Positions 6,641 to 26,775 of a stretch of 32,419 nucleotides of DNA are shown in pieces. Numbering within the stretch: position 1 is the first letter of the stretch; every line of letters starts with the position of its first letter. Under the pieces are notes generated by a model. That model saw only the letters and a program-made list of their open reading frames with translations, was not told the DNA's origin and searched no databases. The DNA is from Spirogloea muscicola (taxonomy: Eukaryota > Streptophyta > Zygnematophyceae > Spirogloeales > Spirogloeaceae): contig WELB01000068.1 of the NCBI GenBank assembly GCA_009602725.1, positions 340,910 to 373,328 of the forward strand, given 5' to 3'. The position numbers and the translations under genes were made by a program.

Positions 6641-7190
6641 GCCGCGCGCAGCGACGGGCCGCCGACGCCCGGCGGCGCNAATGCTGCCCTCGCCGACGCC
6701 TCTGGCACAAGTTGTGCGCCGCCGCCGCCGCCGCCGCTGCTCCTGTGCTTGCTAGCTGTGCTAGCCTTGGCACTTGGCCAGCTCTGGCCCGGTCTGCTTT
6801 CGGAAGTGCTATTTGTTCTTCCTTCTGATTTACTTGTTTCATTTTAAATCTTCTGGGAGTGCTTCTTCTTCAGGAGGAGGTGCGGAGGCTGAGGAGGCCA
6901 GCCGGAAAGAGCGGCCAGAGCGGCAAAGCTGCTTCTCCTGTCGCAGACACGCTGTCATTTTCCCATTGCAAAGCCGCCGCTGTGCTGTCGTCTCTGACGT
7001 CAGTCCGCTCGTCAGGCGCCTCTACATATATATCCACAACCAAACGCCTTCCGGCTTTGGTTGTGGACATGCCGTATGCCATATGTCGCGCTTTGGCTTC
7101 TCTATGGGCGAGCACTTTATTCAGCCGTCTGGCAATCCGCTACCCGCCATTTCGGAGACTGGTCTTTCTGACCTGCGGCTGCTAAAAGAA
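6641..7190. other. Upstream region of DHAR; no gene
   Basis: GC-rich sequence with a (GCC)n run near 6717-6737 and one unresolved base at 6679, then a perfect hairpin at 7033-7067. One copy of the phrase TTCTCTATGGGCGAGC (about 7097-7112) belongs to the dispersed repeat family described below. The open frames here have no family features. The DHAR promoter is presumably within this stretch. Confidence 0.5.
7033..7067. repeat. Perfect 12-bp hairpin upstream of DHAR
   Basis: TCCACAACCAAA (7033-7044) pairs exactly with TTTGGTTGTGGA (7056-7067) around an 11-nt loop. It is about 400 bp upstream of the DHAR start codon. Confidence 0.8.
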
Positions 7191-7268
7191 AAAAAAGAAG
7201 GCTCGCCCATAAAGAAAGAAGAAGGCTCGCCCGTAGAGAAAGAGGGGCTGGCAAAGCCAGCCCAAAAA
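7190..7268 (-). repeat. Hairpin cassette, copy S1
   Basis: Read on the minus strand it gives TTTTTGGGCTGGC, a 3-nt loop, GCCAGCCC, CTCTTTCTCTACGGGCGAGC, then a second GGGCGAGC and a T-rich run. The stem is 7245-7252 with 7256-7263 (8 bp, perfect). The same cassette occurs at 7385-7455, 9325-9378, 11225-11310 and 12200-12280. I interpret it as the end of the 3' non-coding part of the retroelement family here. Confidence 0.7.
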
Positions 7269-7300
7269 TCCCCTACCCCTACCCCCCTACCCCCTACCCC
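7269..7300. repeat. C-rich (CCCCTA)n tract
   Basis: Imperfect repetition of CCCCTA/CCCTA/CCCCCTA units, similar to but not the same as the plant telomere unit CCCTAAA. It sits exactly between cassette S1 and the left terminal repeat of the 182-bp element at 7299-7480. Confidence 0.7.
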
Positions 7301-7480
7301 TAGTATGTTGTCGTGATTGGTAGAGAGAAGTGGCACTCCCAATTGGTAGAGTAGAGGAGTCCTTCCTCGGCTTCTCATTCTTCGGCTTTGGACATTGTCC
7401 ATTCTTTTTGGGCTGGCGTTGCCAGCCCCTCTTTCTCTATGGGCGAGCCTTCTTTCTACCAATCACGACAACATACTAGG
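7299..7480. mobile_element. MITE-like element with 32-bp terminal inverted repeats
   Basis: Left end 7299-7330 (starting CCTAGTATGTTGTCGTGATT) and right end 7449-7480 are inverted copies with one mismatch in 32 bp. The interior carries another hairpin cassette (7385-7455), which runs into the right repeat. No ORF or clear target-site duplication is visible. The right end falls exactly where sequence shared by the retroelement copies at 7481 and 11358 begins, so it looks inserted at, or recombined with, that 3' end. A plain inverted duplication is the alternative. Confidence 0.6.
7385..7455 (+). repeat. Hairpin cassette, copy S2
   Basis: Plus-strand copy of the cassette: TTGTCCATTCTTTTT, then GGGCTGGC (7410-7417), loop GTT, GCCAGCCC (7421-7428), then CTCTTTCTCTATGGGCGAGC. 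The stem is perfect. It is inverted relative to copy S1. Confidence 0.7.
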
Positions 7481-8761
7481 GAAGCTCAGTACCCGCGAGT
7501 GACCAACATCAGGTCCGAGTAGCTCGAGGCAGGGAAGAAAGGAGGAGGAGGCACTCCGCCGAGACCCGGAGGCAACGGCCAGAGCGCGTCCTGCGCGCGT
7601 GTGGACAGCGTGGGCAAGGGATCGCTGGAACGATACCGCCAAGCGCATGCGAAAGACCTGGGCGAGCGACCCGGCGGCGTTGAAGCCGGGCAGCGCCCCG
7701 GGCGGGACCCGACCGCCGATCAATAGCCTGACGAGCAAGCCGCTGGAGGAGATCCAGCCAGCGGCTGCCGAAGGCCCCGTGAACATCTATCGCCAGGGCC
7801 GCGAACTCATCACCGACCGGGTGATCGGCATTTTTCGCTCTTTTGCCCGGGCTGCCAGGCCTACCGCATGCCCTGCAAACGACGTCGACCTGTTGGAATT
7901 GTTGGAGTCGTAGCAGTCAGTTCTCACCACGTCGGCGATGATTCGGGAACCGCCGCCGGGCGGGATAGCGACCAGGTCGGCGCGTCGGGTGTGCGACTGG
8001 CCGTCCTCGCCCCGCAGGATGGGCATGACTGAGGAGCACTCCACCGCCACCTTGAAGCCCGCCTCCGCAAACACCCCCTGCATACCATCGGGCAGGAGAT
8101 CATGGGAAGCGGTCCGCTCGCCTCCGTGGGCGCAACGGAGCATGTGCGCGGCCAGCTCCGCAGGGTCGGCGTGCCGGGCGCCGCACTCGCACTGTGTGAC
8201 ACCCACTAGGCAGGGAGGGAGGAGCCCCAAGAGCCGATGCACCGCCGTCCGGTAGACTTCGTCTGGCATGGTAATTGCTGCATAGAGTGGGAGCGCTTGG
8301 AGCCACGCCGCCGCCCCAGGGGAAGAGGCGGAGAGAAGCCGAGCACGCCCGCGAACGTCAGACGGAGGGAGAAGCTCCACCGCCTGGTCAGAGGCCACCT
8401 TCTCGACCAACGCCGTGAAGCGTGCCTGGGCACGCAGGTCTGGAGTGTGGGCGAGGTGCCGGAAAGGAACAGTCTGCTCGGACATGTTGGGGTGGACCTG
8501 CAGGAGCCTGTCGCGGGCAGTGCGGAGGGCGACTTGGAAGGGGAGTTGGCCTGTCTCCACATCGGCTGCCGCCCGCTCCAGGGCGCGTTGTCCGTGCACG
8601 AGGAACCTCTGACACATGGGGGCGGCCACCTGCGCCCAGCTTCCCAGGAAGGCCGCCTCACAGACGCGGGCAACTGAGCGGCATAAAGAGGGGCTTACTG
8701 AGTTGCCTAGTGGCCACTTGAGTCGCCTTGTGCTTCGATGCTTCAACGCCACTGCTGTCAC
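7481..8761 (-). pseudogene. C-terminal part of a non-LTR-type retrotransposon protein (zinc finger plus restriction-like endonuclease), degenerate copy 1
   Basis: The 324-codon frame 8761-7787 continues, after a frameshift near 7830, in another frame to about 7489. In order: a tail of the RT/thumb type (FLGSWAQ), SDVRGRARLLSASSPGAAAWL, FRTAVHRLLGL-like YRTAVHRLLGLLPPC, a finger C-E-C-G-x5-D-P-x6-H-x3-C followed by HGGERTASHD, an endonuclease core RRADLVAIPPGGG with I-I-A-D-V-V, then AKERK and a helical C-terminus SVSFQRSLAHAV. This matches the C-end of R2-type LINE proteins with PD-(D/E)XK nucleases. No reverse transcriptase domain is present. Near 7830 the copy lacks one base compared with the other copies, so it is inactive. 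Family call is from motif memory. Confidence 0.7.
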
Positions 8762-8789
8762 TTTGCAAAAGCTGTTTGTTTACCCGTCC

Positions 8790-9045
8790 CTCCGAATATT
8801 GTTCATTCCTATGTCTGGATTGGTATGTGCTCACCCGTGGATATTTACGTCACACTTTCACCTTAGACACCTTAGCATGAGGCTTCATTGTTGTAGCCCT
8901 ATTTCTTGCACTAGTTTTTGCCTGAACAATGTATTGGCTTGGATTGGCCTCCCTTTCATTACATGCGCACCGTGCGCCTTCTCTCTCCAATCCAGCTATC
9001 GCCCTCTCCTGAAAGAGTTTTTCTCTTTCACGATGGGCAGGCCAG
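8790..9045 (+). repeat. Retroelement 3' module, plus-strand copy
   Basis: It starts with the phrase GTGCTCACCCGTGGATATTT (about 8826-8845), then CACCTTAGACACCTTAG, TGCCTGAACAATG, TTGGCCTCCCTTTCATT, the hairpin GCGCACCGTGCGC (8965-8977), and ATCGCCCTCTCCTGAAAGAG. The same order of blocks is found inverted at 9380-9545 and in part at 10560-10695. No coding part of the same orientation precedes it; it abuts the 5' end of copy 1. Confidence 0.65.
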
Positions 9046-9203
9046 GCTTTGGCTGCTGCTTCTGGGTCTTGACGTGTGGCAACAGATTCCGGCTGTCAGC
9101 TACTCCAACTTGCGGCTAATGACTAGCCCTTAGACAATGAGCCCCACATGTAGCTGCTTGCATAGCTGCATGGTTGCGCTTTCTGGCACCTGTAAAATTT
9201 GTC

Positions 9204-9322
9204 ATTTACTCTTGGATTGCGTGTATATGGGCGGACAACCAGGCGGCAGCCCCTGGGCGAGCACTTCTCTGGGGAGGATGCAGACAGCAGCCGCGCGCGT
9301 CCCCAAAGGTCGTCAGAGAGAA
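9204..9322 (-). pseudogene. Short fragment of the endonuclease-bearing retroelement
   Basis: Minus-strand frames contain WGRARLLSASSP and, after a frame change, PGAAAWL. These match consecutive segments of copy 1 (RGRARLLSASSPGAAAWL). The rest is absent. Confidence 0.6.
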
Positions 9323-9324
9323 GA

Positions 9325-9378
9325 GAAGGGCTCGCCCATTGAGGATAGGGGCTGGAAAAGCCAGCCGAAAAAAGAATG
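9325..9378 (-). repeat. Hairpin cassette, copy S3 (degenerate)
   Basis: On the minus strand: TTCATTCTTTTTTC, then GGCTGG/CCAGCC stem (9350-9355 with 9361-9366), then CCTCAATGGGCGAGCCCTT. One stem position is lost compared with S1 and S2. Confidence 0.6.
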
Positions 9379-9379
9379 A

Positions 9380-9756
9380 ACAAAGTACGAGAAGAGAAGG
9401 CGCGCGGGGCGCATAATGAAAGAGAGGCCAATTCAAGCAAAAACATTGTTCAGGCAGAGTCGAGTGCAAACTAAACAAGGCTACATAATACGGAGACCAA
9501 AACTAAGGTGCCTAAGGTGACAGTAGTAGCCACGGGTGAGCACAAACAAATCTGACAAGCTAACTTGGGGAGCTGGAGCGCCGCCACGAAAGCCGGAGGC
9601 CTGACTTAGAGCGCGCCCTGCACGTTGCAGAGAAGGGAAGGCAGAAGCCCCATCGCCGCGGTGAAAGAGGCCGCATCCACCTCCGCCATAAGGCGAGCTT
9701 GGGCCCGGAGATCGGGCGTGCGCGAGAGGTGTGCAAAAGGGACTGCCCGTCAATAT
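9380..9756 (-). pseudogene. Internally deleted retroelement copy with its 3' module
   Basis: One minus-strand frame from about 9753 reads VPFAHLSRTPDLRAQARL, then MAEVDAASFTAAMGLL, equivalent to VPFRHLAHTPDLRAQARF in copy 1. The finger and nuclease are missing. From about 9560 it goes to LLLTRG-type sequence (LFVLTRGYYCHLRHL), then the 3' block GTGCTCACCCGTGG (9531-9544), GCCTGAACAATG, TTGGCCTCTCTTTCATT and the GC-rich hairpin near 9400-9413. The block order equals 8790-9045 in inverse orientation, so the two form a large inverted repeat. Confidence 0.6.
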
Positions 9757-9782
9757 CCGCAGGCCAGCCCGTAGCCCGTTGC

Positions 9783-10080
9783 TCCAGTATCCGCTTGTCG
9801 CCGTTTAGTGGCACTTCCCTCGTGAATCATACCAGGGCGTCCTCCATCCCGGGGCCCGGGCCTCGCCGCCGCGTTGGATGAGCCACCGCCTGGCCGCGGA
9901 GTCGTCGCGCTGCGCCCACCGCTGGGCGAGCTGGACCCCTTTGCAGCTGGAGCCTTGGGGTCCAGCTCCCTCAGCGGCGGGCGCAGCGCGACTCCGCGGC
10001 CAGGCGGACGCGATGGACGGCGTTGGAGGCCCTGGTATGGTATACAGGGACGTGCCACCATCACGGCGACAAGCGGAGCC
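9783..10080. repeat. Long imperfect foldback (inverted repeat)
   Basis: Arms of about 125-155 bp: 9783-9939 and 9957-10080, with a 17-nt centre. Matching pieces include CCGCTTGTCGCCG, GTGGCAC, CATACCAGGGC, CGCCTGGCCGCGGAGTCG, GCGCTGCGCCC and CTGGACCCC, all found inverted in the other arm. The left arm has an extra GGGGCCCGGGCC-type insertion. It lies inside the retroelement nest. Both strands carry open frames only because of the high GC and symmetry; I see no protein family. Confidence 0.8.
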
Positions 10081-10559
10081 TGGAGGTGGGGGAGGAGGGG
10101 AAGCAGCGCCGCGAGCTCGGGACCCGCCCTGCCCCCGGCTATTCCCTTCTCGTGCTGCCGGCACGATTCGAACAGGGGATGTCGCGGACCAGGCGTCTCC
10201 ACCAACGTCACGGGCAAGGCCCAGGGCGGCCAGGGTACCCCGTAGGATGCGACAGACATTCGATTTCCGGTCTGTATGGACATAGTCTATTACCTCATCC
10301 GCTAGCCGCTGGCTACTGATCGTCGGTGTTGGCCCCATCCGATACAATATCCTCTGTACGTAGTCGGGCGGGTAGCTTAGGCCATTCTAGCGTCCTGCAA
10401 ACCATAGCTGCATGCTTTAGAATGCGGTTATCGTTGAGTCTGCAGCGAGTGCCTGAGAGCAAAGCTCTCAGGCACTTGCGATCCACCAGCGTGCTGGTTG
10501 TGCATTAGCCCAGGCTAATGGCTTCCGTGGGGGTGGTTTGGCTCCTCAGTATAGCTTGT
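10081..10559. other. Unassigned, no gene
   Basis: GC-rich up to about 10350, then mixed. Weak coding-like frames exist on both strands without recognisable motifs. A short palindromic phrase GAGTGCC/GCCTGAGAGC-AAA-GCTCTCAGGC lies near 10447-10476 (GCCTGAGAG then CTCTCAGGC), a good 9-10 bp hairpin. Confidence 0.4.
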
Positions 10560-10695
10560 CAGATATGCATGTGCTCACTCGGGGATATTTAGTGTCCCCC
10601 TTAGCCAGCTCATTACCCAGTTAAAAAGACATTTGTAAGGCTAGAATTGGCCTCCCTTTCAATTTCATGCGCACCGCGCACCTTCTCTCTTTCTG
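10560..10695 (+). repeat. Retroelement 3' module, partial plus-strand copy
   Basis: Contains GTGCTCACTCGGGGATATTT, a CCCCCTTAGCC variant, GAATTGGCCTCCCTTTCA, TTTCATGCGCACCGCGCACC and TTCTCTCTTTC. It aligns by eye with 8828-8990. It is followed near 10729-10770 by an inverted, degenerate hairpin cassette (GGCTGG..CCAGC then AAAAGGAATGGACAA). Confidence 0.6.
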
Positions 10696-10749
10696 TGCTT
10701 TGGAGCAAGCGCGGCCAGGTTGACTGGTGGCTGGGAGAGGCCAGCACAA

Positions 10750-11157
10750 AAGGAATGGACAAGGATAGAAGGACGACGCTGGAAGGACGCTGTCTTCAGG
10801 ACGGCTGTCCACAGGCTCCTGGGCCTCCACCCTCCCTGCCTCTTAGGCGGCATGCAATGCAAGTGCGGCGCCCGCCACGCCGACGCTGTGGAGCTGGCGG
10901 CACACATGCTCCGCTGTGCACACAGGGACCGGTTCCCACGGCCTCCTGAGGGACGGCATGCAGGGCGTGTTCATGGAGGCGGGCTACGGGGTAGCCATGG
11001 GAAACACGTCAATGCCCACGCGGTCGGCCTGGCGGCTCGTGGCAAGGAGCGGAAATATGCCGATCACCCAGCGGGTGATGAATTCGAGGCCCTTGGCGAT
11101 CGACGTCCACGGGGCGTCTGGCAGTCGTTGGCTGGACCTCCTCCTCCGCGGTGACTG
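10750..11157 (+). pseudogene. Plus-strand fragment of the retroelement C-terminal domain
   Basis: The frame from 10720 reads FRTAVHRLLGLHPPCLLGG, C-K-C-G-A-R-H-A-D finger, LAAHMLRCAHRD, then changes frame. HAVGLAARGKERKYADHP (about 11016-11070) follows directly, so the PD-(D/E)XK core (RADLV...IADV) is deleted. It ends with IDVHGAS-type sequence and TGA near 11158. Orientation is opposite to copy 1. Confidence 0.65.
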
Positions 11158-11224
11158 AGCGGGTCATTCTGCTGTAGGTTATGTAGGTCTTAGATGTGCT
11201 TGCCTTTGGACTTGGCCATTTAAG

Positions 11225-11310
11225 AAGAAATTGCTCGCCCTAAGAAAAAAGGGGCCAGCAAAGCCAGCCCAGAAAGAATGGACAATATCCGAAAGCCAAA
11301 GAAAGAAAAA
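11225..11310 (-). repeat. Hairpin cassette, copy S4
   Basis: On the minus strand: GGATATTGTCCATTCTTTCT, GGGCTGGC, TTT, then GCTGGCCCC (two stem positions changed), then TAGGGCGAGCAATTTCTTC. It lies directly downstream, in sense, of the retroelement fragment ending near 11380, as expected for a 3' UTR part. Confidence 0.65.
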
Positions 11311-11379
11311 ACACACAGCTAGGCAGCTAGACAAGAAGACACAACGAAAGCACAGGAAGCTGAATACCCACGGGTGAGC

Positions 11380-11868
11380 AACATCAGGTCAGGCTCGACG
11401 CCGGAAAAGGTGCATTCAGACGCGACCCAGAAGCGGCCGCGATAGCGCGACCTGCACGCGAGTGGACGGCATGAGCAAGAGAGCGCTGGAGGGACACGGA
11501 GAGCCGCATCCGAAAGACCTGGGCCAGGGAGCCGGCCGCGGTGAAGCCGGGCAGCCCCCCTGGCAGACCCGGCCGCCGCTCGATGGCCTGCCGGGCAAGC
11601 CGCTGGAGAAGATTCAGCCAGCCGCTGCCATAAGCCCCGTGGACGTCTATGGCAAGGGCCGCGAACTCGTCGCCGGGGGGGCCATCCGCGTACTTCCGCT
11701 CCTTGCCCCGGGCCGCCACAGCGACCGCATGCCCCGCGGTCGACGCCGACTTGGAGGAGTTAGCGGAATCGACACAGTCGGCGGTCACCACATCCGCAAT
11801 GATACGCGGGCCGCCGCCGGGCGGGATGGCGACGAGGTCAGCGCGCCTGGTATGGATCTGGCCGTTTT
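11380..11868 (-). pseudogene. Retroelement C-terminal endonuclease domain, copy 3
   Basis: A single minus-strand frame (11887-11384) holds HTRRADLVAIPPGGG, RIIADVV, GHAVAVAARGKERKYAD, FAALAIDVHGAYGSGWL, LQRLARQAIERRPG, FRMRLSVSLQRSLAHAV and a stop. It is the most intact nuclease core in the window (D, D and K of the PD-(D/E)XK pattern present). Everything N-terminal of the core, including the finger, is missing. Its 5' side abuts an inverted partial copy at 11886. Confidence 0.7.
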
Positions 11869-11885
11869 TCGTTTGTTCCAAATAC

Positions 11886-12160
11886 ACGAAAATTCCTCCA
11901 GCGGCTTTGCCCGCCAGGCAATCGAGCAGCGGCCGGGTCAGCCGGGGGAGCTGCCCGGCTTCACGCTGCCGGCTCGCTAGTACAGCAGGTGTTCCGCATG
12001 AGTCTGTCGGTCTCGTTCCAACGCTCCCTGGCTCACGCAGTCCACTCGCGAGCAGGCCGCGCTATGGCTGCTGCATCTTGGTTCAGGCGGAGTGCCTCTT
12101 TCCCAGCGAGTTACTCGGACTTGCTGCTGCTCACTCGTGGGCAAAGAGCTTCCCTCTGCG
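11886..12160 (+). pseudogene. Retroelement C-terminal end, inverted copy 4
   Basis: Plus-strand frames give FARQAIEQRPGQPGELPGF, then after a frame change VFRMSLSVSFQRSLAHAV, SRAGRAMAAAS and LLLLTRG. This equals the last third of copy 3 in inverted, head-to-head orientation. It is followed by hairpin cassette S5 in sense. Confidence 0.65.
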
Positions 12161-12199
12161 TCGTCTCGTGTCAGCTGTGTAGTTTTCCTTTTTGGCACC

Positions 12200-12280
12200 T
12201 GGTTTGGCTCTTTAGAGTGTGTACATTCTTATTCAGCTGGCCTTTGCCAGCGCCTCTTCTCTATGGGCGAGCAACTTCTT
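12200..12280 (+). repeat. Hairpin cassette, copy S5
   Basis: Plus strand: ACATTCTTATTCA, GCTGGC (12236-12241), CTTT, GCCAGC (12246-12251), then GCCTCTTCTCTATGGGCGAG (12251-12270). With S4 it bounds a roughly 1.05-kb inverted structure (11225-12280). Confidence 0.65.
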
Positions 12281-13093
12281 TAGCGCGGTCGTTGAAAAGT
12301 ACTCGACTGACACTTGGAGCTAGAAAGGCTTATGCTACAAGGGACTGCTACACATTGAATTCGTTTCAGCTTTGACAGATGTCTGAGGCGTGTTATTACA
12401 TGGCAAGAGGGAAGAGTATGCAAAATATCTGAAACATGCAAGTCTTTGTCGCAATGTGGCAATCACGTGATTGGCAGGATATTAATTTTCACAGCAGTGT
12501 GGAAGTTGGGGCTTGTCCTGCAAGGCCCCAAGTCTGGAGGCTGGTAAGCTGTTGCCCTAGGAGGTGCCAAGGTAGCACCATCTCACTTCAGCTTACTGCC
12601 ATTGCGCAGGAGGCTTTTGGCTCTTGAGCTCTACAAGCCAGTGAGCAAATGATTCGTTTCAGATAAGTCGGCCCTCAGCCTGCACAAGATAGGGGAAAGA
12701 GAGCTGACTTTGACCATACTATCAAAACACAAAGGCATGTTCCGAATCTCCTGAGAATGAGGAGGTTGGAGAATGAGCACACTCAACGTGCTGGACCCTG
12801 ATTAAAGAAAGGACAAATATCAGCAGAGGATGTGTGTCAGTCTGTGAGCCAGTGCATGGACTTTGGAGAAGTACGGCAAGCTGGTGGACCCGACCTTGAC
12901 TGGGGACTTCTCAAGATCTGGGAGGCAGACGCCAAGAATGTAATGTGTAAAGTACAAGCTTGCAGTAGGCTGGGCAACAATTGAGATTGCATATCCATGC
13001 AGCACACTTCTTTTAGCCTCATTGATTGAGTTGTCATATGTATGACATAACAGGCAATTGCCATCACATGCTCATCTAGACTGCTGCCTACTC
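12281..13093. other. Unassigned region 3' of EXO1
   Basis: About 810 bp without motifs that I recognise in any frame. The EXO1 3' UTR must lie at its right end. The short frames here are probably spurious. Confidence 0.5.
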
Positions 13094-16000
13094 CTATCTC
13101 CTGGCACAATTAGTGGCAGATGAGGGCTTGCTAAAATCGCCGGTACTTAAAGCACGCGGCTCAAAAAATCGATTGATGCCTTTCCGCCTACTTGTGCCAG
13201 GAGAGGTGGCATAGGAGGCGCCGTGCGGAAGCCTTCCACAAGAGCTACTCTTCGCATCCGTCTCCTTCACCAAGCTAATGAGAGCATCTTCTCCTGCAGC
13301 ATTGGCTCGGTCAGCTAAAGCACTTCGCAGATTCTGGCCTCCATTGCAGCCAGCTACTGCTCCTCTTGCCCGCTTCACTAGCGGAGATGTGCTGCATTTC
13401 TGAAGGTGCAGATGGACACATCCAGGTCTTCCAGGCAGCATATCAGCTGCGCATCTCTTGCTTGGAGTGGCCACAATTTGACTGCTGCTGTTTTGCGTAG
13501 CCGACACGCCTAGCACGGCAATGTGTGGACCACAGGAGGGGGAGGCCCTCCAAGCACCAGAACCCACGTCATCACAAGCCGTGCCAAAGTCCAATACTTG
13601 GGGAAAAGGGTTGGAGTATTGGTTGAGCTTTCCAATGTGTTGTGTCATAGCTTCTGGCTGCGTGAGCCTCTGCAGGAAGCTCACGGTGGCTGCCTTTGTT
13701 ACCTTGAAGGGATTGCTAGAGGGCAGCGAGGTAGGGGGCGGCAGGTCTCGGCTGCGCGACCGGCCTGCCCCTCTGGGTGTCGTGAAAGCACCACTGGCAC
13801 TGGTGGCGTCCGCTGCATGGCCTGTTTCATAACCAGCTATGCCATGTGCTCCTGGAAGTCTGTGCTCACTTTCCTCTGGAGCACTGTCCCTCACAACATC
13901 ATCACTAGTTGAAGAGGTGGTGGATGTTTCTGCCTTGGCTGTGCGAGCAGCAGAACTCAGTGTGCAAAGGACGCTGAAGTCATCCACGATGGGAGCTGTG
14001 GGCAGGGTTCACAATGTTGCAGAGACGATGTTCAGGTGCAAGTCAGGAGCTGAAGCACAAAGCGTTCTGCTTTGACCCATTCAAGTGCTCGGCAGAAAGG
14101 CCTGAACCCAGAAGGATCTCTGTCAAGGTAACCAAGCTGAAAACGTCTCGAAGCTTACAGATCCTTGAACCAGGAGTAGCAAGTCCTGAAGCAATTAAGA
14201 GTGTGCAACTACGATACATTTGTAGGTCATATCTTGCTTACCTTCGTCAAGTGCACGCGTCCTGTCTGCTGGCAGCGAGGAGTCCTGTGGTTTGCTGGAC
14301 TGGCACCTCCGGAGCATCCTAGGGCCAGTCATTGCCTTCAGCTTGGTTGCTTGCAACCCGCTTGCTGAAATTGCAGATGTCATGGGACTGCCACCTGCCG
14401 GCCAGCTGACACATGGAGATAGGTGGAATGCTTCCATTGTAAGCGGGTTGACCTCTCCCACAGCAATGGCTTGGGCCATGGAGCTTGGCATATCGCTTCT
14501 CATTGTCAAGGCCCACACTTGAAGGACAGCAGATGTCAGTGGGCCTTGAGCCAAGGAATGCAGTCCATGCCTACTGGCATACTACGCAGCATGTTATGGG
14601 ACAACAAGAGAGCTTGCATCTTTGGAGGATACGCGCCAAGAAAGTCACTGTCATTCCCACACTGAGACAGGAAGTCCCTAGCCAGTGGTGACAAGTGTAC
14701 CAAACCTCCTGTGCGTGCATCGTAACTGCAGGAGGGCACATTCAGATGCTACTTAGTGACATGCTCAACAAGGCCCAAGGAAATTAATTTCTATGACGAA
14801 ACGGCACTTGGGACCACTATCATGCTGAGCGCCTAAGGAAGTGCATGTCAAAATGTTTGTCGATACAGTCACCACAGTCAAGTTTCTGAGACATACAACC
14901 GATGTCTTTACTTGTTAACAGCAGGCTTTGTGCTTGCTCTTCCCTTGGCATGCCAGCAGTGGATGGGTGCAGGGCTGCTTGTCATTGACAAGTGTTGACA
15001 AACAAACACAGAATATTTGGATAAGGCAGCAACATACTCACACCCGAGCATGCATGAAGGTGGCCATAGCCTGCCAAAAATTCTGAGTGTAGTCCTTTGA
15101 CACTTTGAGCTTTGGATCTTGAGCCAGCTTGAAGAGGACCTGGTGCAGGGTCTCAGTGAGTAGAGGAGCTGGAGTACTATTGCGTCAGATAACAGGCAGG
15201 TCCTCTGTCCACAGAGTCATGGAAGATTGCGATGGGCCAAACAATGTATAATTATTGTTGTAACCATTCTCACCCGAGGTAGATTGCCATTGTTCCGGTC
15301 AATAAGACCGTGTGCCCTCTTGATGCCAATACCAGGAATGGATGGCAAAAAGTCACAGCCAGAGAGGATGCACATTGCTGCACCACAATATTGTACTGTG
15401 AATCATTTCTGAAGGAGATTCTGTCTGAGGGACAGGCGCTCCAATGTTGAATAAAGGAAGAATGGTTACTGACAGTCCCATTTGTGCTGCTCAGCCACAA
15501 AGTGAGTCTACTGAAAGTGGTCGTTACACTGCATGCTGGTCGCATAGTTGTGCTGATTGATCAGCAGATTGTTGAGCAAGTTGGCAGAAATTGTCAGAAA
15601 AGCGGCTTAATTCAAGACTGTTGGATTGGTCAACAGTATACCCAAAAATTTGTGACTGTCAAAGCGCTTGAAGGAGAAGTCCAACCCAGGCCGGCAGGGT
15701 GCTCCAAATATGCTCTTGAGGCTGATTCTCTCTGCATGGCCATCCCTGTCCATCTTGTACATCACCTGCATGTGGCTGTGAAGAACGTCAATTACACAGA
15801 GACTGGATGACTGTGCTATGGTCGTGTTGCACATTCGTGTGTGCTTCCAAGTGGCTTGGCTAGTGCCAGACGAAGATGAGTATGGTAACACTCCTGATGG
15901 CATAAGCAAGCTTGGAGAGAGACAGCATAAGATGGAGCATGGCCCATGACTGCTGGACGCAAGACAGCCGCGAACAATGCGTGATTGACTCGACTAAGTG

Positions 16001-17585
16001 TAAGGTGACCATCAAGAGGACTGTTATTATAAATATAGGAGTCCTTACCGCCTTGTTTACTGCTCACCTCATCGCAACCGTATGCAAGGAGGTCACTGTC
16101 CTCGCTGATAACGGCCGCAACGCCCCCTAACTCTGCTGGCAAACTCGCCAGGTACGCCAGCTGGGCGTCTGCCTCGTAAGGGGCCACCACAAACTCCACA
16201 CTCTCCTCCTTCAGCACCTTTGCTCCATCTCAGCACAAAATCAACTTTGATCAATAGTCCAACCCTGCTTGAATATCAGCAGCCGCTCATTATTATCATC
16301 TCTGAACTGTGCTTCCGACGACCAATTGGTATTTGAGCCCCCAAGCAAGAGCCTACAATGTAGTAAGTAAAGGAGGATGCCTTCTCCAGAAGGAGTTTGG
16401 TCCTACTACAGATGACTGTTAGTGCGGTCATCTCGCATCACTGACAGAGGCAAGCACGTCACTGACAGTGGCAAGCACGCCAGGTGTTGCTCTCGTTGCA
16501 AACGAACGAGCTTGCATGTGACCAAGCTACCTGGATGAGCTCGTATGCCATCTCAGGTCGGATCTCAACCGCCCTCTGCAGGGCATCCAGCTGTAGGAAT
16601 TAGCTTTAAAATTTTTGCCTCGGCACATTTTCCTTTTCTCCTCTGCTTGGCCTTTGTCCTGGTTCACCACAACCGCTCTGTCGCTCTTGCTGCTGCCTGT
16701 TAGTGTTACCAGCAATGGTGCTGCTCCAGCGACCAGCTCACCTGAAAGTGATCCGAGGCACCTTGCACATCGCCGACCTGAAGCCTCGCTCGTGCCTGTT
16801 CCATGCTGGCTTCCCTCCTCCTGCAACATCGTCACAGTACTTCAACTTGTTATGGAGCTAGCAAGACACTGGCTTGCAGTGCCAGTAGTGGAAGCAGGGA
16901 GGAAAGTGTGTTCAAGACGGAGCACCTCTGGCGCTCCTGCTCAGTGGCCGCTTTGATTGGCAGCCGTGCGCCATCGAGCACCATGACGGGCACGACTCCG
17001 TGGAAGCGAAGCAAGCGTACGCGGTGCATGCAGTAGGCTACATAGGCTGGCGCCTGGCCTGGCCCCCTGCAACTTGGCTGGGTGCCCTTCAGGCAGATGT
17101 CCATGCTGCAGGCATATGCTGCACCAAGCAGAGACCAATCAGTTAATGGACACTTGACGAAAATTCCTACGCTATAGACCCATCAATAGAGAGCTCATTA
17201 AATTCAGCTCAGCCTTAGACCAATCAGTCACATCGAAGCTGGCTATCAGGCCAGCGGAAGAACGACGGCTCCATCTTCAATGGCGAGAGCAAAGAGAGCT
17301 CATTGCCGTTGCTGCAGCCTGGGCTGTGCTTACCGCCCTTGTGCAACCAGGAGTAGGCATCGACACCGACCTGCGCCATGCTTCGTGACCACCCCACTTC
17401 AGTGTCTTCTCTCTCAGAGTGCACAATGCAAGTACATGGCGGGTCTAAGTCACAGGCTGTGAGGCACGCAGACATCACAGCTGAGAAGGCGATCTGGGAG
17501 AGCTCACTCGCTTGCCACAGTATGCTGCAACATGGACTGGCTCCACAAAAGGCTTCAGAGCTGGCAGCAGGCCCTGTATGCCCAT
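13094..17585 (-). CDS. EXO1: Exonuclease 1 (5'-3' exonuclease/flap nuclease, XPG/FEN1 family), 12 exons
   Basis: Minus-strand exons: 17585-17508, 17370-17334, 17118-16926, 16820-16742, 16575-16531, 16217-16068, 15765-15642, 15377-15274, 15139-15042, 14725-14633, 14495-14242, 13995-13094. Every phase joins; the product is 718 residues (Arabidopsis about 735). EXO1 resects DNA 5'-3' in mismatch repair, break repair and meiosis. Seen: start MGIQGLLPALKPFVEP; VDAYSWLHKG (D30); VMVLDG (D87); MAYELIQVLKEE; VAPYEADAQLAYL (E159, D161); ISEDSDLLAYGC (D184, D186); CILSGCDFLPSIPGIG (D244, helix-hairpin-helix); KRAHGLI; RVYDARTGGLVHLSPL; DSDFLGADMPSSMAQAIAVG. Residues from about 420 form a low-complexity Ser/Thr-rich tail ending near RRKGINRFFEP, a degenerate PCNA-box-like site. 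An insert of about 9 residues precedes YVAYCM. Two acceptors (AAAG, GAAG) lack the usual C before AG. Confidence 0.95.
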
Positions 17586-18104
17586 GGCTGCCGCAAGAGC
17601 TTGTCCAGGTCGAACGAGCTGCCGTGGAGGGCAGCAGAAGAGATTGCTTGCTTGATGCTACCACAGGCAGGGTCAATGGGTGCGTGCCATGATGGTCCCA
17701 GTCACTTCCTCAATGCATCATCTCCGCCTGCATCCAGCAGCAGTCCGACGCAGCTCATGTTCGGCAGGGAAGGATGCTATACGTTGGCGCTGATGGCCTT
17801 ATTTAGTGGAACCAGCGCGAAAGCGAATGGCGGAGCTGGCGTGGGTCGTCAGTTGGGTAGTCACGCGCTGGATTTGGGTGTTAAGCGGAAGAGCAAGGGG
17901 TGCGAGAGGGCGGGGGATGAGGGAAGAGGCAGAGGCGGGGGAGAAGGGAAGAGAGTGTGTGAGAGAGAGAGAGGGGTGGGGAAGGGGAGAGGAAGAGANA
18001 GGGGGGGCGCAGGAGCGATGGAGGTTATGAGGATGGGGGAGGAGGGGGGGCGGGGTGGCTGCAGTTTGTGCGCCGGTTTTGGCGGGAACGCGTGGTGTCG
18101 GGCG

Positions 18105-18138
18105 GCCTGCCGCCCGACGACGGCGTCGTCGGGCAGGC
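18105..18138. repeat. Strong GC-rich hairpin upstream of EXO1
   Basis: GCCTGCC-GCC-CGACGAC pairs with GTCGTCGGGCAGGC around the loop GGC, with a 3-nt bulge. An overlapping second palindrome GTCGGGCGG/CCGCCCGAC (about 18097-18118) shares the same bases, so two alternative stems compete. Confidence 0.75.
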
Positions 18139-18184: not shown

Positions 18185-18235
18185 GAGAGAAGGCGCATGG
18201 TGCACATGAATTGAAATGGAGGCCAAATTAAGCCA
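18185..18235 (-). repeat. Dispersed copy of the retroelement 3' module
   Basis: On the minus strand: TTGGCCTCCATTTCAATTCA, then TGTGCACCATGCGCCTTCTC. It is equivalent to the block at 8941-8985, with the GCGCAC/GTGCGC stem mutated. A lone TTTTCTGGGCTGGCC (about 18350-18364) may be a half cassette. Confidence 0.55.
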
Positions 18236-18239
18236 ACAC

Positions 18240-20065
18240 ACTTTTCTGGCGGGTAGAAGTTCCTCTACGAACTAAGCGGTGGCGGCCATGTGCATATTCC
18301 CTGCCCCATCGGGCTATGTGCAGTCTTTTCCATATCCATTAATACTATTTTCTGGGCTGGCCTGTTAGACCCGTTGTCCCATTTTGATAAAGCCTTCACT
18401 CAAATGACCGGCAAGCACTGCAGCTTCTCATGGCGATGAGGCTGCTTGATGAGCCCCAGACAGCAGCTGGACGTACGGCTTGACAGAACGTGCGCGGCTA
18501 AGCAAGACAGAAGGGCTCGTTTAAAAAAGAGAAGGCTATTCATGATAGAGGCCGTGGCTCTCTTTCTCTGTGGCTGAAAGATGGCAACTAACGAAATCTC
18601 TCTTTCCGGCCCTTTTGAACCTTGTAAATCCTTTCGGCTGGACACCCACATCCATTACCGTATACTGGACGAGTTAGTGATGTAACGGAAGATTTGAAAA
18701 GTGCTCTAAGCAGTGTAGATCATCGATTGCCCAAATGGACCAGTAGTTGTGTGTGTGACCACACAAGTGAGCTGGAAAGGTGATGCTTTTTCCAAAGCCT
18801 GGCCACTTAGTAACTGTGACGTGGGCGGGGAGCTTCAGCCACTGCTATCGAGGGCGAGCATGGTTGTGGACACATCAGGGCAGAATTGATGGCGGCAGAC
18901 TTGTTTGTTGCTTGAGGAATGAACAAATGAAGCTCCACTTGTTGCTGTGAGGTTGAAGGCGGCAGATTTTGCTTACCTTCTCGTGCCGGCCACTGAAGCA
19001 AGGGGGCGCTTCTGCAAAGTGTTTTTCCGTCAGTCACGGCCACTGCCACTTGAAGAAGCTCCTGAGTCTTCCTACAAAGGCTTTGATCGGCTGGCCCGAA
19101 AGGAAAGTCCACAGACTACTACACAGCAGGAGTCAACACATGAGGCGCCAAAGACACAGCAGGCGTCAGGGTTTGGCGCCGGATGCAAGCTAAAAGGTAG
19201 CATCGCAACGGTAGCAACACATTTGAGAAGTCAACACGGTCAGAGCATAGGACAGGATGAGCAATAATTTTGGATGCATGTCACACATCAGAATTTCAGG
19301 TTAGAAATTACACCTAATGATTGCACGCAGATTTCAATCCTGCCAACTGTCACTTGGATCTTTCAACCATCAGAAACAATCACAGCATGCGGAAAAGCTA
19401 AGATACACATTAAAGGATTACGCCTTTTCACAGAATTTTATCAAGAGTATACGGTCGTGCTTAGAAGAGCCACTTTACAGTGACAGTGTCTGCGAGCAAG
19501 CTTTGTCCGGCAGGAATGACATGAATCTTACAACCCATATTTCGTATGATACGTCTTCTTAGTGCGCCTTTCCTCACTACGTTAAACTGAACGGTATATT
19601 CAACAGGAGTCGTGGACCACAGTGAGGTCATTGTCGTAGAAGCTCAACTATGCCCTCCCTTGAACATGGTAGTCACATGCCTTTAAATGTCACCAATGAC
19701 AAAGCTGAATGCAGGAAAGTGACATTGCAACATGGATGCAATCTCACACCCTGTGTATCACGAAGGGTTCTTGAACGCATGAACAAAGCGTGAAGGTGTT
19801 TACCTTCTAGCAGCAAATTCAATTTGCATGATTTGTCAATATGGTCAATATGACCAACGACAGCAAAACTCATGTCTTGTAAAAAATGTTGCACTTTCAA
19901 TCAGATAGCAGCTCCACTTAAAAAGGAAAGAAAAGTTGGAACAGTATCAGGGAGTATTGGTACCTACTTGGCGTCCTGCTTAGCTAGACAACCAGCCGAC
20001 GTGACGCACAGTAGCTGCGAGCCATTTTTCTCAATGCTAGCAAACTTCTTCTCTAGATACCAAAG
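18240..20065. other. Long intergenic region without recognisable genes
   Basis: About 1.8 kb between the EXO1 upstream region and the 3' end of the first beta-helix gene. The open frames are short and motif-free. Besides the half cassette near 18350 I see no structure. It should contain the 3' UTR of the beta-helix gene near 20065. Confidence 0.5.
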
Positions 20066-22564
20066 TCAGTATTGGCGGCCAGTCCTGTAGATGTTGAAGT
20101 TGCCAAAATACACGGAAATTGCCACCTTTTTGGGCCCATTTTTGGATTTGGGGCATGACTTGAAATCTGGGTTGGACGTGAGAATCGGGGAGTCAAGCTT
20201 GAGGCCATAGTCATTTGCGGTGGCGTTCAAAAAATTGTCTTGAATTGCTGTTGTCTCGTTGTACACCGCCCAAGATTGGCTGTTGAGCCTTGGCACAAAC
20301 TCCAGGCCCTGACACCCTAGGAAAGTTGGCAGATAGTTCCTAGTGGCAGGTGCCACGACCGCGTACTGCATAGCATGTCATGTCCAAGTCGCCAGCATCA
20401 ATGAGAACCGGCAGTGTCTTGGGCATTATCAGACTTATAAGACTAGTAAGTACATGTATAACAGGTTCAAACTTGTACAGTACGTACAGACACAGTTATG
20501 TGTTTCCGTCGATATAGTGTTTCCGTCGATATAAACACACATCAATACAGAACACAATAGAGTACCACTGTGCATCTGCTTATCTGCAATCTGCTGGCAC
20601 AAGCTCAAGAGGAAGCATGCAGACCAGGATAGAACAAGCACTTCTATCACCTGCTGTATGTTGTCGGTGGGAAGGCCGCTGCAATTGCCAGTCACGTCAG
20701 CAGGGTACTGTGCACCAGGTGGGTTGCACTCGACGCCATTCACAGAGGTCTCGGAGCAGATTGTGGAGTACCAGGGGTTCTGATTCGCAATTACACCACC
20801 GGCGGGGTACTTGGCTGTGCCTCGGGTATACCACGTAGAGCCAGGCACATGAAGGCAGTTGTTCACGTCGACAAGCTGGCAACTTATCCACCCAGCAGTA
20901 CTCGTAGCACCGACTACTACCACGCTTGTAATGTTGTTGTGCTTGCCGTTGTTCTCCTTGATGCCATTGGTCTGGTTGACGCATACCATTCCGTCAATCG
21001 TTATACCAGAGCTGGCATAGTCGATGTAGAGGCAATGCTCCCCACCAAATATGTAGTTGCAGGACAAATAATTTCCTGAGACGCGCAGCAGTGATCAGCA
21101 CCATCTCAGCATGCCAAATTTAGCAAAGTACACGAACTCGTTAGGCTCAGCAACAAAAGCGTTTGAGCAGGTCTCCTTGCTTCAGGTGTCAAGAGGCCCA
21201 GTGAAGAGCTGCTCAGTCCTCACAGAAGTCACTAGAAATGCACGTACCAGGATTGTACCAGTGTGTTGCAAAGTATATTCCTGCAGCATCTGTGACCTTT
21301 TCTCCTGGACGGACGAGAATGAAGTTGTTGGTGATGTTGTGATTCAGGGAGTCGGCAACGTTGGTGATGCCAAGCCCAATCTGGACGCAGGTCCAATGAA
21401 GGCTGTGGCAGTAATTGTTGGACACGGTCACACCAACTGCTGATCCGGCAAGAAGCACTCCAATATCACCGCTGTAGATACGGTTGTTGGTAACACGAAT
21501 GCTGCTGTTTGTCAAGCCATTGCTGTTTCCACAGCCCGTGCCGACACGAACATTGATACCCGCCTTGTATGATGTGAGATTCATGTTGTCGAGTGTGATG
21601 AAGGAAGCATCGTGCATGTCTGAGGACAGAGGACGCTTTGATCAGCTTGCTTTACCAAATACTGGACATCACAGCACGTCCTCCATAATCTAGCAAGCTG
21701 CAGTAGGAGGTGGTAAGACTATTTCTTCCGTTCAGTGGCTGTGCCATCTTGACCTCCTGCTTTGCCAAGCCTCATAGGTGACCTACCGACGCGCCCATAA
21801 ACTGTGCCTTGGGTGATCTGTACGTCGAATGCGCCACCAATGAAGATGGCCGGGCAGGGCTGCTTCCCATTCTGGGACACCGTGACGGTGGCGAAAGCAC
21901 AGGCAGTGTTGGAGGAGTTGGCCGTGAGCGGGATGTTGAATGAGACACCATTGAAAAGGATGTTGTGCGGCGATCTGCCACCAATGTTGACAACCGCAAA
22001 GGAGTCGTTGGCAGCCGACAGCGTGTAGCCTGGCGATGGCACTGCCGACATGAACATGGTGCAGGAGAACTTGCTATTGAGAGCAAGCGTGGCGTCGAGC
22101 GTGATGTTGTTCTGGAGCACAATTACGACCGTCTGGTTGGAGTGGTACTGCGTCCGATAGAGAATGTCGGAGACGGTGATTGCATTAATGAAGACCTGGG
22201 TTGCGCTGCATGGACCCCCTGCATCGCTTAGCAGGAACGATAAAACAGGCAATTACTGTCTCGCTAGCTATGGCAATACGAGAGGAAGTCCAGAGGTCGG
22301 TGTCACAAGCAATGCCGCTAGATGTTGAGCAGTGACCATGACGCGATAGCTAGAATGCCGCTCACCCGAGACGCCCGGTGGGACGAGGGCTCCGCTGGTC
22401 TGACGGTAGCGTCCGTGGGTGTCATGATGGCCTATCTTAGTCGGCAAGGGGCCGCCACTGTGCCGCTGTGCCCGCTGCTGGACCAGGACGGCACCTGCAA
22501 TCGGATTAGCCACCAGCACAACGGCGAGCACGAGCGCAGCAGCTCGCAGAGCTCGGGCAGCCAT
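20066..22564 (-). CDS. Secreted right-handed parallel beta-helix (pectate-lyase-fold) protein, copy A, 5 exons
   Basis: Minus-strand exons: 22564-22366, 22218-21787, 21619-21248, 21075-20651, 20365-20066; phases 1,1,1,0 all join to a 575-residue protein. Residues 1-25 (MAARALRAAALVLAVVLVAN...) form a typical signal peptide, so the product is probably extracellular or in the secretory pathway. The body has many short Asn/Gly/Val-rich repeats of beta-helix type (SIRVTNNRIYSGDIGVLLAG, VTVSNNYCHSLHW, GGEHCLYIDYASSGITIDG), several N-x-S/T sites and scattered Cys. No catalytic residues of a known pectinase can be assigned. Function is unknown, perhaps cell-wall polysaccharide binding or modification. 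It is the paralogue of the gene at 29661-31989, with identical exon phases. Confidence 0.85.
20503..20536. repeat. Two-copy 17-bp tandem repeat in intron 4 of beta-helix gene A
   Basis: GTGTTTCCGTCGATATA is present twice in direct succession within the intron 20366-20650. Confidence 0.75.
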
Positions 22565-23440: not shown

Positions 23441-23740
23441 GCTCTTCCAGCGGGGGGCAGTGGCTACAAGTGGCCAAACTGGCACTCCAACATTCTGAAT
23501 GATTGTCGACTGAACCCATGAGGCGGGCTGCAAGAAAAATGAATGCAAGACCTGATAGAGGATCAAATGCGCGTGGTGCACGTGTAAAGGAAGGGAGGCC
23601 AAGCCGAGCCAAACCCCTGCAACCTCCATGCTAAAGGCAAAGGATGTTAAGATTGTCGGGCTACACAAAGCGAGAAAACAGTGGCTACGAGACCAGGGCG
23701 AAAGAAGAGAAATCGCTTCCAGTAGAGGGCGGTGGCTGTG
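23441..23740 (-). repeat. Dispersed repeat-module copies downstream of the microsatellite
   Basis: On the minus strand a CAGCCACCGCCCTCTACTGG block occurs at 23713-23740 and, diverged, at 23441-23470. Between them (about 23569-23610) is TTGGCCTCCCTTCC, then ACGTGCACCACGCGCATTTG, the block also seen at 8941-8985 and 18185-18235. The CGCCCTCT block also occurs at 8992-9017 (+) and 29491-29520 (-). Confidence 0.55.
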
Positions 23741-25316: not shown

Positions 25317-26033
25317 TCATTTGAAAACATGCACGCGAATAATGAGCACAACATTTTGAGTGTAAGACGTGCAAAGAGCAACACAATGTGTAGGACTGCT
25401 TACAACAGACTTACGACGACTGCAGGATTGGTTGGCCATCGATGCGGAACACAACTCCTTCTGTAAAGCACGCAAACGTTGATGTGTGGAAACAGCCTTA
25501 ACATCTAAAGAGGTTAGCTGCTTCTGCTGCCCTGTCAGTGGAGGACACTTTTTGCTGGTCAGCTGCGGTATGTCAGCTGATAGTCCGCCTGTATGTACTG
25601 CAGTAAAATTGCTGTTAGCCTGCAAGTCTGCATAAGACCAGTGCTTGAGTAATGGCAACTCAACTTTAGCAGTACCAGAATTGTACCAATCGGGTCTGTA
25701 CCATGCAGTTCCAGTGTAATAATCTAGACCGAATCCTAATGGCAAAAGAAATTCAGTCCCAAGCAGAATATCATAAGTGTCTGCTTCAGTAATGATGCAA
25801 GGGACTGACAATGACGTCTGCTTGTTAGGATCATCCGAATACAGTGTAATCTGCAAAGGATTTTTGGTAATACCGATCATGTTGTCCGTACCACCAGTGG
25901 CAGTCTTAATCTTCATGTCACTAGAGACAATATCACAGGACTGCAGCTTCAATGCAGCAACCATATTTCTGCCCAAAGGTACAGGTTGAGCTCCTGAGTC
26001 GATGAGAACCAGTGGAGGCAGAATCGACTCAAA
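25317..26033 (-). pseudogene. Aspartic protease of an LTR-type retrotransposon
   Basis: The minus-strand frame reads PPLVLIDSGAQPVPLGRNM, with the catalytic D-S-G encoded at 26000-25992. It then shows VPCIITEADTYDILLGTEFL (ILLG being the flap/second hydrophobic-hydrophobic-Gly motif) and GFGLDYYTGTAWYRP. It is in the +1 frame relative to the upstream gag-like frame, whose TGA (26031-26029) overlaps the join. It ends at 25317 without any RT sequence, so the element is truncated. Confidence 0.75.
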
Positions 26034-26775
26034 TATTTAGGATGCCAGAACTATTGTCCAGTATAGTAACAGAAGAGAACTTCTTCTTCCTCTCTTCGAG
26101 TGACCTGTCCAACAGCTGTTCAGCTGACAACTTGCAATCAACAGTAAGTGAGGCACTGTCAGCAGCCTTCGATTTTGTGGTCTGCACAACAACCTGAGGC
26201 TTAGCATCATCACCCCGTTTCACTGGGTCTCTGAGTGCTGGGTTAGACTGTGGAACTGCAGAAACAACAGCGGCCAGGTGAGAGTACATGTGATTGTGAG
26301 AAGTCCCTGCACCATGCTGAGTTACATACAATCCTTCAAGGTCATCACCATCTTCTTCCACGGTAGAATGCATCACAGCCGTTGCAGCTGTCTTAGTTCT
26401 GGACTCGGCTCTGGCTTCACTGGCAGCTAACTGTTTGATTAGTTGTTCTACAAGTTTTTCCAGCTTCTCAATCTTGGGCAGTCCACCTTGTACAGCGTCA
26501 TCTGCGGAAGATCTCTGTCCACTCACATTCATATTGCGAAGGTGAGCAGGCATTTGGTTAGGATACTTTTTCCAACATTGATTGTCAATATGACCTATCC
26601 TTCCGCAAAAAGCACAAGTGGCTCCCTTGGTCTCGTGTAGAGCAGTACAATCCCGCCTAATGTGTCCAACCTTACCGCAATTGTGGCAAGTAACAGCAGG
26701 ACGAGGCGTATAACGACCTTCCTGAATATCAGATCTCTGAGATGCATCAGGCATTGCTACATTCACAGTAGGCAT
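26029..26775 (-). pseudogene. Gag nucleocapsid part with two CCHC zinc knuckles
   Basis: A 248-codon frame. Two knuckles are clear: CHNCGKVGHIRRDC (residues 30-43) and CAFCGRIGHIDNQC (about 54-67), followed by a coiled-coil-like Lys/Glu/Leu stretch (KIEKLEKLVEQLIKQLAAS) and a Ser/Asp-rich end. The frame overlaps the end of the upstream gag frame in a different register and stops at the start of the protease frame. Confidence 0.85.

Follow-up and report, generated by a model that had tools for sequence, protein, structure and literature searches.

The question raised by this locus is what the short sequence blocks are that recur, in both orientations and together with hairpins, between 7 and 12 kb of the window, meaning the whole 32,419-nt stretch of Spirogloea muscicola DNA analysed here. 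A sequence-only reading had interpreted them as one ordered two-hairpin module at the 3' ends of a degenerate retroelement family, with outlying copies near 18.2 and 23.6 kb. The recurrence is genuine and above chance, and nhmmer profiles confirm it for the cluster and for both outliers. A long-tail profile built on copies E, G and H matches 9594-9393(-), 8811-8989(+) and 10520-10692(+) and, outside its input, 18252-18185(-) with E=1.9e-12 and 23668-23566(-) with E=2.4e-7. The short-tail profile, whose input copies are B, C, E, F and Ai, matches 12198-12282(+), 7375-7458(+), 11305-11226(-), 9398-9322(-) and 7268-7216(-), plus two weak sites outside its input at 7097-7121(+) (E=0.0017) and 10763-10729(-) (E=0.0022). 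Local counts of single blocks, which take in unrelated sites, were set against 100 shuffles: TTGGCCTCCCTTTCA with at most 3 mismatches occurs at 7 local sites versus 1.16 in shuffles, ATTGTCCATTCTTTTT at 4 versus 0.22, GGCTGGCNNNGCCAGCC at 12 (4 of them hairpin 2) versus 3.64, and GCTCACYCGTGG with at most 2 mismatches at 14 versus 6.2, the maximum shuffle reaching 13. The blocks most likely represent the tails of fragmented copies of a single ancient LINE-like retrotransposon, lying inside or next to one another.

The region as a whole is quite probably an assembly of dead copies, truncated at the 5' end and nested, of a single LINE (non-LTR retrotransposon) family. The copies are decayed, have their 3' part in common and differ in their start points; both the degenerate retroelement family and the placement of the blocks at 3' ends are upheld. 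In this reading, the ORF of the family ended with a zinc-knuckle-like motif, a probable restriction-like endonuclease (RLE) and an SDLxxLTRGY-type peptide. Copy A (7790..8779, minus strand) is a 330-aa open frame spanning a linker and the zinc-knuckle-like and RLE-like region, with a frame-shifted continuation to about 7478; this C-terminal part (7478..7786, minus) lies in other frames and runs up to SYSDLMLVTRGY and a stop. Copy B (11225..11887, minus) includes an RLE-like domain, the C-terminus with its last codons in another frame and a complete short-type 3' tail, copy C (11894..12280, plus) runs from the C-terminus to LTRG in one frame and also ends with a complete short-type tail, and copy D (10786..11144, plus) is a frame-shifted zinc-knuckle-like and nuclease fragment. 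An older nuclease copy, K, is interrupted by an insert, E; its first part (9642..9749, minus; E=2e-6) corresponds to about aa 102-138 of A and its second (9230..9311, minus), a weak match of E=0.011, to aa 141-162 as two short pieces past the insertion.

The acidic pair of RLEs is PD...D/E with X12-14 spacing. Copies A and B carry RAD-X14-D, in which the P of PD is replaced by A, and the motif KX2KY is found as KERKY in B, A having KERKM. RAD-X14-D and KERKY are taken as RLE marks, and the proposed position of a nuclease, probably restriction-like, upstream of the blocks in sense is upheld. Such fragments precede the tails in A, B, C, E1 and H, but the claim does not extend to G, where none was detected, and M and N hold part of a tail only. 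Both KX2KY and a knuckle of the form CX2-3CX7-8HX4C are described for RLE LINEs (PMC5678591), whereas the knuckle of A and D reads CX1CX12HX3C, and because of this mismatch in spacing the nuclease is called RLE-LINE-like rather than a proven RLE-LINE member. GXW is absent from the RLE part of the nuclease; B has GSGW. Pfam detected no RT or nuclease in 41 of the 43 stop-to-stop frames of at least 80 aa free of N between 6.5 and 12.5 kb (all except 9134-9376 on the plus and 8853-9095 on the minus strand, copy A being scanned as 7787-8761), and searches of NCBIfam and PDB sequences with the nuclease gave no match. AlphaFold models were poor (mean pLDDT of 45.8 for A and 40.8 for B). No relatives were found in viral and prokaryote contigs by protein and 0 by DNA pattern, nor among phages by tblastn, and no description of the family appears in the titles and abstract openings of the open-access papers retrieved. 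One match to a viral contig (L001) was rejected as a chance similarity of a GC-rich stretch, the last 178 bases having no other block by eye.

Block 1 (GTGCTCACCCGTGG) had been counted among the UTR motifs and turns out to be coding. It consists of the final ORF codons, L/V-T-R-G, translated as LTRG in five of six copies and as VTRG in A, and over its four codons these copies display one extra base kind at first, none at second and five at third positions. LTRG is in one frame with the preceding C-terminal sequence in C and E1; in A and B its frame differs from that of the RLE, which is taken as decay. Past coding is also visible between copies, in-frame differences at first, second and third codon positions being 12/10/28 between A and B (59 codons), 6/6/16 between D and A (46 codons) and 10/11/19 between K and A (36 codons). 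A pairing of block 1 with the terminal ATGGGCGAGC, which would close the short tail, is unproven. This pairing is present in the MFE folds of B, C and E, is absent from that of F, and involves 11 of 12 pairs in C and fewer in the four other combinations tried, the level of C being matched by 23 of 64,814 12-mers of the window. Against it, variation falls mainly on third codon positions, and the partner is missing from the long tail.

Two kinds of tail come after the same ORF C-terminus. The long one terminates near GCGCACCGTGCGC in E1, G, H, M and N, and the short one is terminated by GGGCTGGC-n3-GCCAGCCC plus GGGCGAGC in B, C, F, Ai and E2. Among the long type, G (8811..8989, plus) includes the last codons and hairpin 1 at 8965-8977, H (10416..10692, plus), a profile match, has a decayed C-terminus and hairpin 1, and M (18185..18252, minus) and N (23566..23668, minus) are isolated fragments, the former with hairpin 1 and the latter more decayed. 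Copy I (9035..9232, plus) associates a decayed C-terminus at 9035-9141 with a probable tail of uncertain 3' end. Short-type tails are found in F (7331..7448, plus; hairpin 2 at 7410-7428), which is inverted relative to copy A and sits between its nuclease sequence and its tail, and in Ai (7201..7268, minus), where hairpin 2 is followed by a second GGGCGAGC 24 nt on; J (7097..7121, plus) is reduced to the final bases of such a tail and L (10729..10763, minus) to a decayed hairpin-2 fragment. Long and short tails stand in series at one place only, E (9330-9628, minus), which alone carries both hairpins, and the single ordered module is not borne out. The hairpins are best read as marks of two different 3' tails found together only once, and the "two-hairpin module" is thus mostly an ordinary feature.

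Relative to A, insert E splits K between aa 138 and aa 141. Its first part, E1 (9401..9628, minus), is a 5'-truncated long-tail copy that starts within C-terminal nuclease coding sequence (C-terminal match, E=0.00023) and ends with hairpin 1, whereas E2 (9330..9388, minus) is a short-tail terminus, hairpin 2 plus GGGCGAGC, which would represent a further, very short insertion. Three pyrimidine tracts of low complexity, a caveat for the repeats that they form, accompany these parts: P1 (9629..9641, minus; CCTTCCCTTCTCT) and P3 (9317..9329, minus; CCTTCTCTTCTCT), the 5' and 3' flanking direct repeats taken as target, and P2 (9389..9400, minus; CCTTCTCTTCTC) between E1 and E2. P1 and P3, identical at 12 of 13 positions, flank the whole insert and 0 of 2000 random regions are as good; P2 and P3 form a perfect 12/12 repeat on both sides of the short tail (null fraction 0.0005), and P1 and P2 agree at 11 of 12 positions (0.0035). 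With a repeat of 12 nt around the short tail and one of 12 of 13 around the whole insert, E is rather probably the product of two successive target-primed insertions within K. Alternatively, E would be a single element showing the genuine 3' UTR of the family, with the two hairpins in series, and the other copies would have lost one or the other. That P1 and P3 flank E as a whole favours this possible but doubtful explanation, as do CTCTTTCACGATGGGC in G, which agrees with the short-tail end at 14 of 16 positions, and a gapped, loosely scored short-tail match at the right place in N. Yet no short-tail match 3' of the long tails G, H, M and N stands out from 300 shuffles each, with 44, 42, 94 and 79 shuffles equally high under strict scoring and 197, 100, 102 and 23 under loose scoring. 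Moreover, both hairpins occur in no other copy found, P2 equals P3 across 12 nt, G, H and M part from E shortly past CCTTCTCT, and the complete short tails of B and C are without the hairpin-1 block. Convincing flanking direct repeats are restricted to E, none being detected at the eight other sites tested, M, G, H, C, B, I, N and F (null fractions of 0.25 to 0.96).

Two further explanations concern what the tails are. Their hairpins might be a structured 3' UTR under selection that the element's RT recognises, as in R2-like or stringent LINEs, which is compatible with dead nested copies but, on analysis, somewhat unlikely. In its favour, hairpin 2 has an 8-bp stem, perfect in F and Ai and with two wobbles in B, its five inner pairs are intact in all six copies, and stem-loops near 3' ends are known in stringent LINEs (PMC4176376) and in one monocot L1 lineage (PMC3747384). 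The paired decay of the stems described earlier was seen in neither hairpin, in sets of only six and five copies. In the hand-set alignment of hairpin 2, the 48 cells from six copies comprise no two-sided change, two one-sided wobble-preserving changes and seven broken pairs; with the MAFFT alignment, equally good scores arise in 148 of 500 shuffles, the sole two-sided cell falling in row C, itself misplaced by one base. For hairpin 1, 0 of 25 cells from five copies is two-sided, between 371 and 500 of 500 shuffles do equally well, and the changes are mostly CG <-> TG or CA. Every copy seen is dead, so that decay alone suffices to explain them. Recognition of the tails by the element's own RT is plausible by analogy with other LINEs. 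As for SINEs sharing a LINE 3' end, they are reported with their LINE partners in Chlamydomonas (PMC3747384), and M and N are indeed short, isolated and without detected nuclease. Nevertheless, this explanation is very improbable: C-terminal coding continues into the tail in E, H, B and C, ARAGORN finds no tRNA gene and Rfam no family at gathering score in the window, and M and N begin at different tail-profile positions, 137 and 108, in the manner of truncated LINE copies. Among short copies the clearest is E, which starts within nuclease coding like a 5'-truncated LINE, at odds with the suggested SINE-like copies sharing the tail only. A bacterial terminator scan also flags both hairpins, with 10 sites versus 5.4 in shuffles, a result uninformative for a eukaryote.

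Returning to truncated LINE copies, their 3' ends have a common neighbourhood. CTTCT or CTTTCT is found within 12 nt at 11 of the 13 listed ends, against a background of 1.6% of 12-mers; this count is without L, where no end is present, I, whose end is uncertain, and three further exact TGGGCGAGC sites (6586-, 7659+ and 9923+), which CTTCT does not follow. The CTTCT past the ends may belong to the element tail rather than to the target. No poly(A) occurs in the 14 nt past the 13 listed ends, and none of them runs into ATT repeats. In the proposed mechanism, the element protein would nick a pyrimidine-rich target of the CCTTCYCTTCTCT type, reverse transcription of the element RNA would begin from its 3' end and frequently halt early (target-primed reverse transcription), and later copies would land within earlier ones; by analogy with stringent LINEs, the RT of the element would use the hairpins as landmarks at the end of its RNA. 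A bolder reading, which we consider speculative and improbable, is that the copies belong to a new RLE-type LINE family in which either of two 3' tails can follow one ORF terminus. Such a family would home to pyrimidine tracts resembling CCTTCTCT, also where these lie in its own copies, and would form Zepp-like self-nested clusters by a different nuclease. If both the two tails and the preference for pyrimidine tracts held genome-wide, the family would be an RLE-type LINE building Zepp-like nested clusters, in which one could ask whether target choice or RT recognition depends on the kind of tail; on the present window alone, it is a useful annotation of ordinary LINE debris.

Neither self-nesting truncated LINEs, Zepp among them, nor structured LINE tails are new. 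R2 inserts into 28S rDNA, and no rRNA family match was found in the window by Rfam. RLE-encoding LINE clades include R2, NeSL, Utopia and HERO, Dualen/RandI having both APE and RLE (PMC4640811). The zinc-knuckle-like motif followed by RAD-X14-D and KX2KY recalls these clades, whereas the knuckle spacing and the A for P of PD differ, and RT and N-terminus are unseen here. Zepp, an L1-clade LINE with a 3' poly(A) repeat (PMC8226300, PMC3747384), forms in Chlorella and Coccomyxa clusters of nested, 5'-truncated copies consisting mostly of 3' ends (PMC8226300, PMC3446292). The present cluster has the same organization, but its 3' ends mostly run into CTTCT rather than poly(A) and its nuclease is RLE-looking. 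The RandI/Dualen elements of Chlamydomonas with SINEX tails are green-algal LINEs with 3' tails common to other elements, but their families end in (ATT)n or (CTATTT)n (PMC3747384), in contrast to the CTTCT or CTTTCT found here; in the present copies the N-terminus is absent and no RT was seen. Stringent LINE tails, as in zebrafish ZfL2 and monocot L1, resemble those described here in their stem-loop near the 3' end. For the monocot L1 lineage, compensatory changes are reported, unlike here, along with CGAG 3' of the stem (PMC3747384); CGAG is also found past the stem in the present tails, about 15 nt on in F.

Past the TRGY codons that close the reading frame, the copies of this LINE-like family diverge into two types of 3' tails. 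The short tail is composed of TTGTCCATTCTTTTT, the stem-loop hairpin 2 and CTATGGGCGAGC; it is carried by copies A, B and C and lies at 11305-11226, 7268-7216 and 9398-9322 on the minus strand and at 12198-12282 and 7375-7458 on the plus strand, with an inverted piece in copy A between the TRGY codons and the tail. The long tail, TTGGCCTCCCTTTCA followed by hairpin 1, is carried by E1 (9594-9393, minus), G and H (8811-8989 and 10520-10692, plus); isolated pieces of it lie on the minus strand at 18252-18185 and 23668-23566. The sequence-only reading had joined these blocks into a single two-hairpin module. Their recurrence is real, as motif counts exceed those of dinucleotide shuffles, and in self-BLASTN 7480-8004 of copy A recurs directly at 11355-11865 (75%), while 11894-12155, 11017-11144 and 10786-10985 are inverted pieces of stretch 7478-8263. 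The single module does not hold: 9330-9628 (minus) is the one place where the two hairpins follow each other. Downstream of the remaining long tails (G, H, M, N) no short tail rose above shuffles, N being the closest with 23 of 300 shuffles as high under loose scoring. Comparison of the copies thus points to two tails rather than one module.

A further sequence, ATCGCCCTCTACTGGAAGAG, recurs with 0-2 mismatches at 8998-9017 (plus), 23714-23733 (minus) and 29492-29511 (minus), three sites against none expected, each followed by what appears by eye as a pyrimidine-rich stretch; a more degenerate piece was seen by eye near 23450 (minus). It may be a third tail type. The tail of copy A includes interleaved inverted repeats (7219-7268/7405-7454, 96%, and 7298-7330/7449-7481, 97%), which reflect a fold-back or an inversion at this site; a CCCCTA-like tract separates them (7270-7300). 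A 24-bp tandem of 2.2 copies at 7191-7243 contains GGGCGAGC and perhaps reflects repeated addition of terminal bases.

Block 1, the first recurring block of that reading, is coding. Translated in frame, the ORF ends with GTGCTCACCCGTGG, and the block gives SYSDLMLVTRGY-stop in A, DLMLLTRGY in B, YSDLLLLTRGQ in C, SLSDLFVLTRGY in E1, DWYVLTRGY in G and SLSDMHVLTRGY in H. Its frame is that of the preceding C-terminal sequence in C and E1; in A and B it differs from the frame of the restriction-like endonuclease (RLE) region, a mismatch taken as decay. Among L/V-T-R-G codons, one first, no second and three third positions vary and, because variation is mostly at third positions, the conservation is that of a peptide. 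In C, LTRG codons 12129-12140 pair at 11 of 12 positions with the short-tail terminus 12261-12272, which may be chance.

In the protein, CX1CX12HX3C is found in A and D, RAD-X14-D in A and B, and KERKY in B (KERKM in A). LINE-type RLEs are described (PMC5678591) with a CX2-3CX7-8HX4C knuckle and, as catalytic lysine, the first K of KX2KY; the lysine motif of the copies agrees with this description, whereas their knuckle spacing does not. The nuclease protein had no match in Pfam, NCBIfam or PDB, and no reverse transcriptase was found in 41 of the 43 frames of at least 80 aa at 6.5-12.5 kb. Differences between copies are mainly at third codon positions, and the copies therefore descend from genes under protein selection.

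The stems had also been read as kept or as showing paired decay. For hairpin 2, with arms set by hand, 41 of 48 pairs form in six copies, with no two-sided change, two wobble-kept cells (both in B) and seven broken ones; on a MAFFT alignment, in which C is misplaced, 148 of 500 shuffles were as good. For hairpin 1, 21 of 25 cells pair, again without two-sided change, and the changes are mostly CG versus TG or CA; E1 also has a single A to C. The stems exist, but selection on them is not supported in these few copies (six for hairpin 2, five for hairpin 1). Perfect 8-bp stems with loops of 3-4 nt number five in the whole window; two of them are hairpin 2, and the remaining three are at 10453, 18098 and 18114. 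One is the core of a perfect 13-bp hairpin in decayed copy H (10448-10476, AGTGCCTGAGAGC-AAA-GCTCTCAGGCACT, loop AAA), and two neighbouring perfect 8-bp GC-rich hairpins adjoin fragment M (18098-18132).

The exceptional arrangement at 9330-9628 is segment E, composed of E1 with a long tail and E2 with a short one. It breaks an older nuclease copy, K, between residues 138 and 141 of A (the part of K beyond E is short, E-value 0.011) and starts within C-terminal coding sequence. Its flanks, CCTTCCCTTCTCT and CCTTCTCTTCTCT, are alike at 12 of 13 positions, which 0 of 2000 random regions match as well, and CCTTCTCTTCTC, between the two tails, matches the 3' flank at 12/12 (null fraction 0.0005) and the 5' flank at 11/12 (0.0035). 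The simplest account would be two successive insertions at one pyrimidine tract, its weak point being the low complexity of these repeats; none of the eight other copies tested has similar flanking direct repeats. CTTCT or CTTTCT occurs within 12 nt after 11 of 13 ends (all but J and N; background 1.6%), these ends, eight short-type (B, C, E2, F, Ai inner, Ai outer, J and the mini piece 9254-9262) and five long-type (E1, G, H, M, N), being chosen by eye and related by descent, so that a binomial figure for them does not give a fair probability. At E, the tract is target because it is also present 5' of the point of truncation; after the other ends, it may be element tail. K also carries at 9254-9269 about 16 extra bases, TGGGCGAGCACTTCTC (by eye), which look like an insertion of the last bases of the short tail only. 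A 36-nt inverted repeat (92%) lies between K and H at 9904-9992.

The sequence-only reading is partly right in what it observed and partly right in how it interpreted it, and the region consists of LINE debris of an already known type. Nested clusters of 5'-truncated LINEs, mostly 3' ends, are reported for Zepp (PMC8226300, PMC3446292), and other reports describe stem-loop 3' tails of LINEs (PMC3747384, PMC4176376), SINE/LINE tail pairs, Chlamydomonas included (PMC3747384), and RLE LINEs with microsatellite targets (PMC4640811). No description of the family itself was found in the open-access literature searched, a scope outside which Repbase and the source genome lie. What is of modest interest is that one ORF terminus leads into two tails and that the family may prefer pyrimidine tracts.

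The 32,419 bases include three single N. An XPG-type exon at 15816-16217 and a gag-like ORF with a zinc knuckle at 26029-26775, both on the minus strand, point to eukaryotic DNA, and its composition prompts the guess of a green alga. An LTR-retrotransposon-like gag with zinc knuckles extends over 25317-27302 (minus), with a retropepsin-like end (DILLGTEF, judged by eye) in ORF 25317-25976. Two diverged copies (68-74%) of a multi-piece gene, at 20065-22226 and 29660-31728, encode what looks by eye like a repeat-rich, secreted protein.
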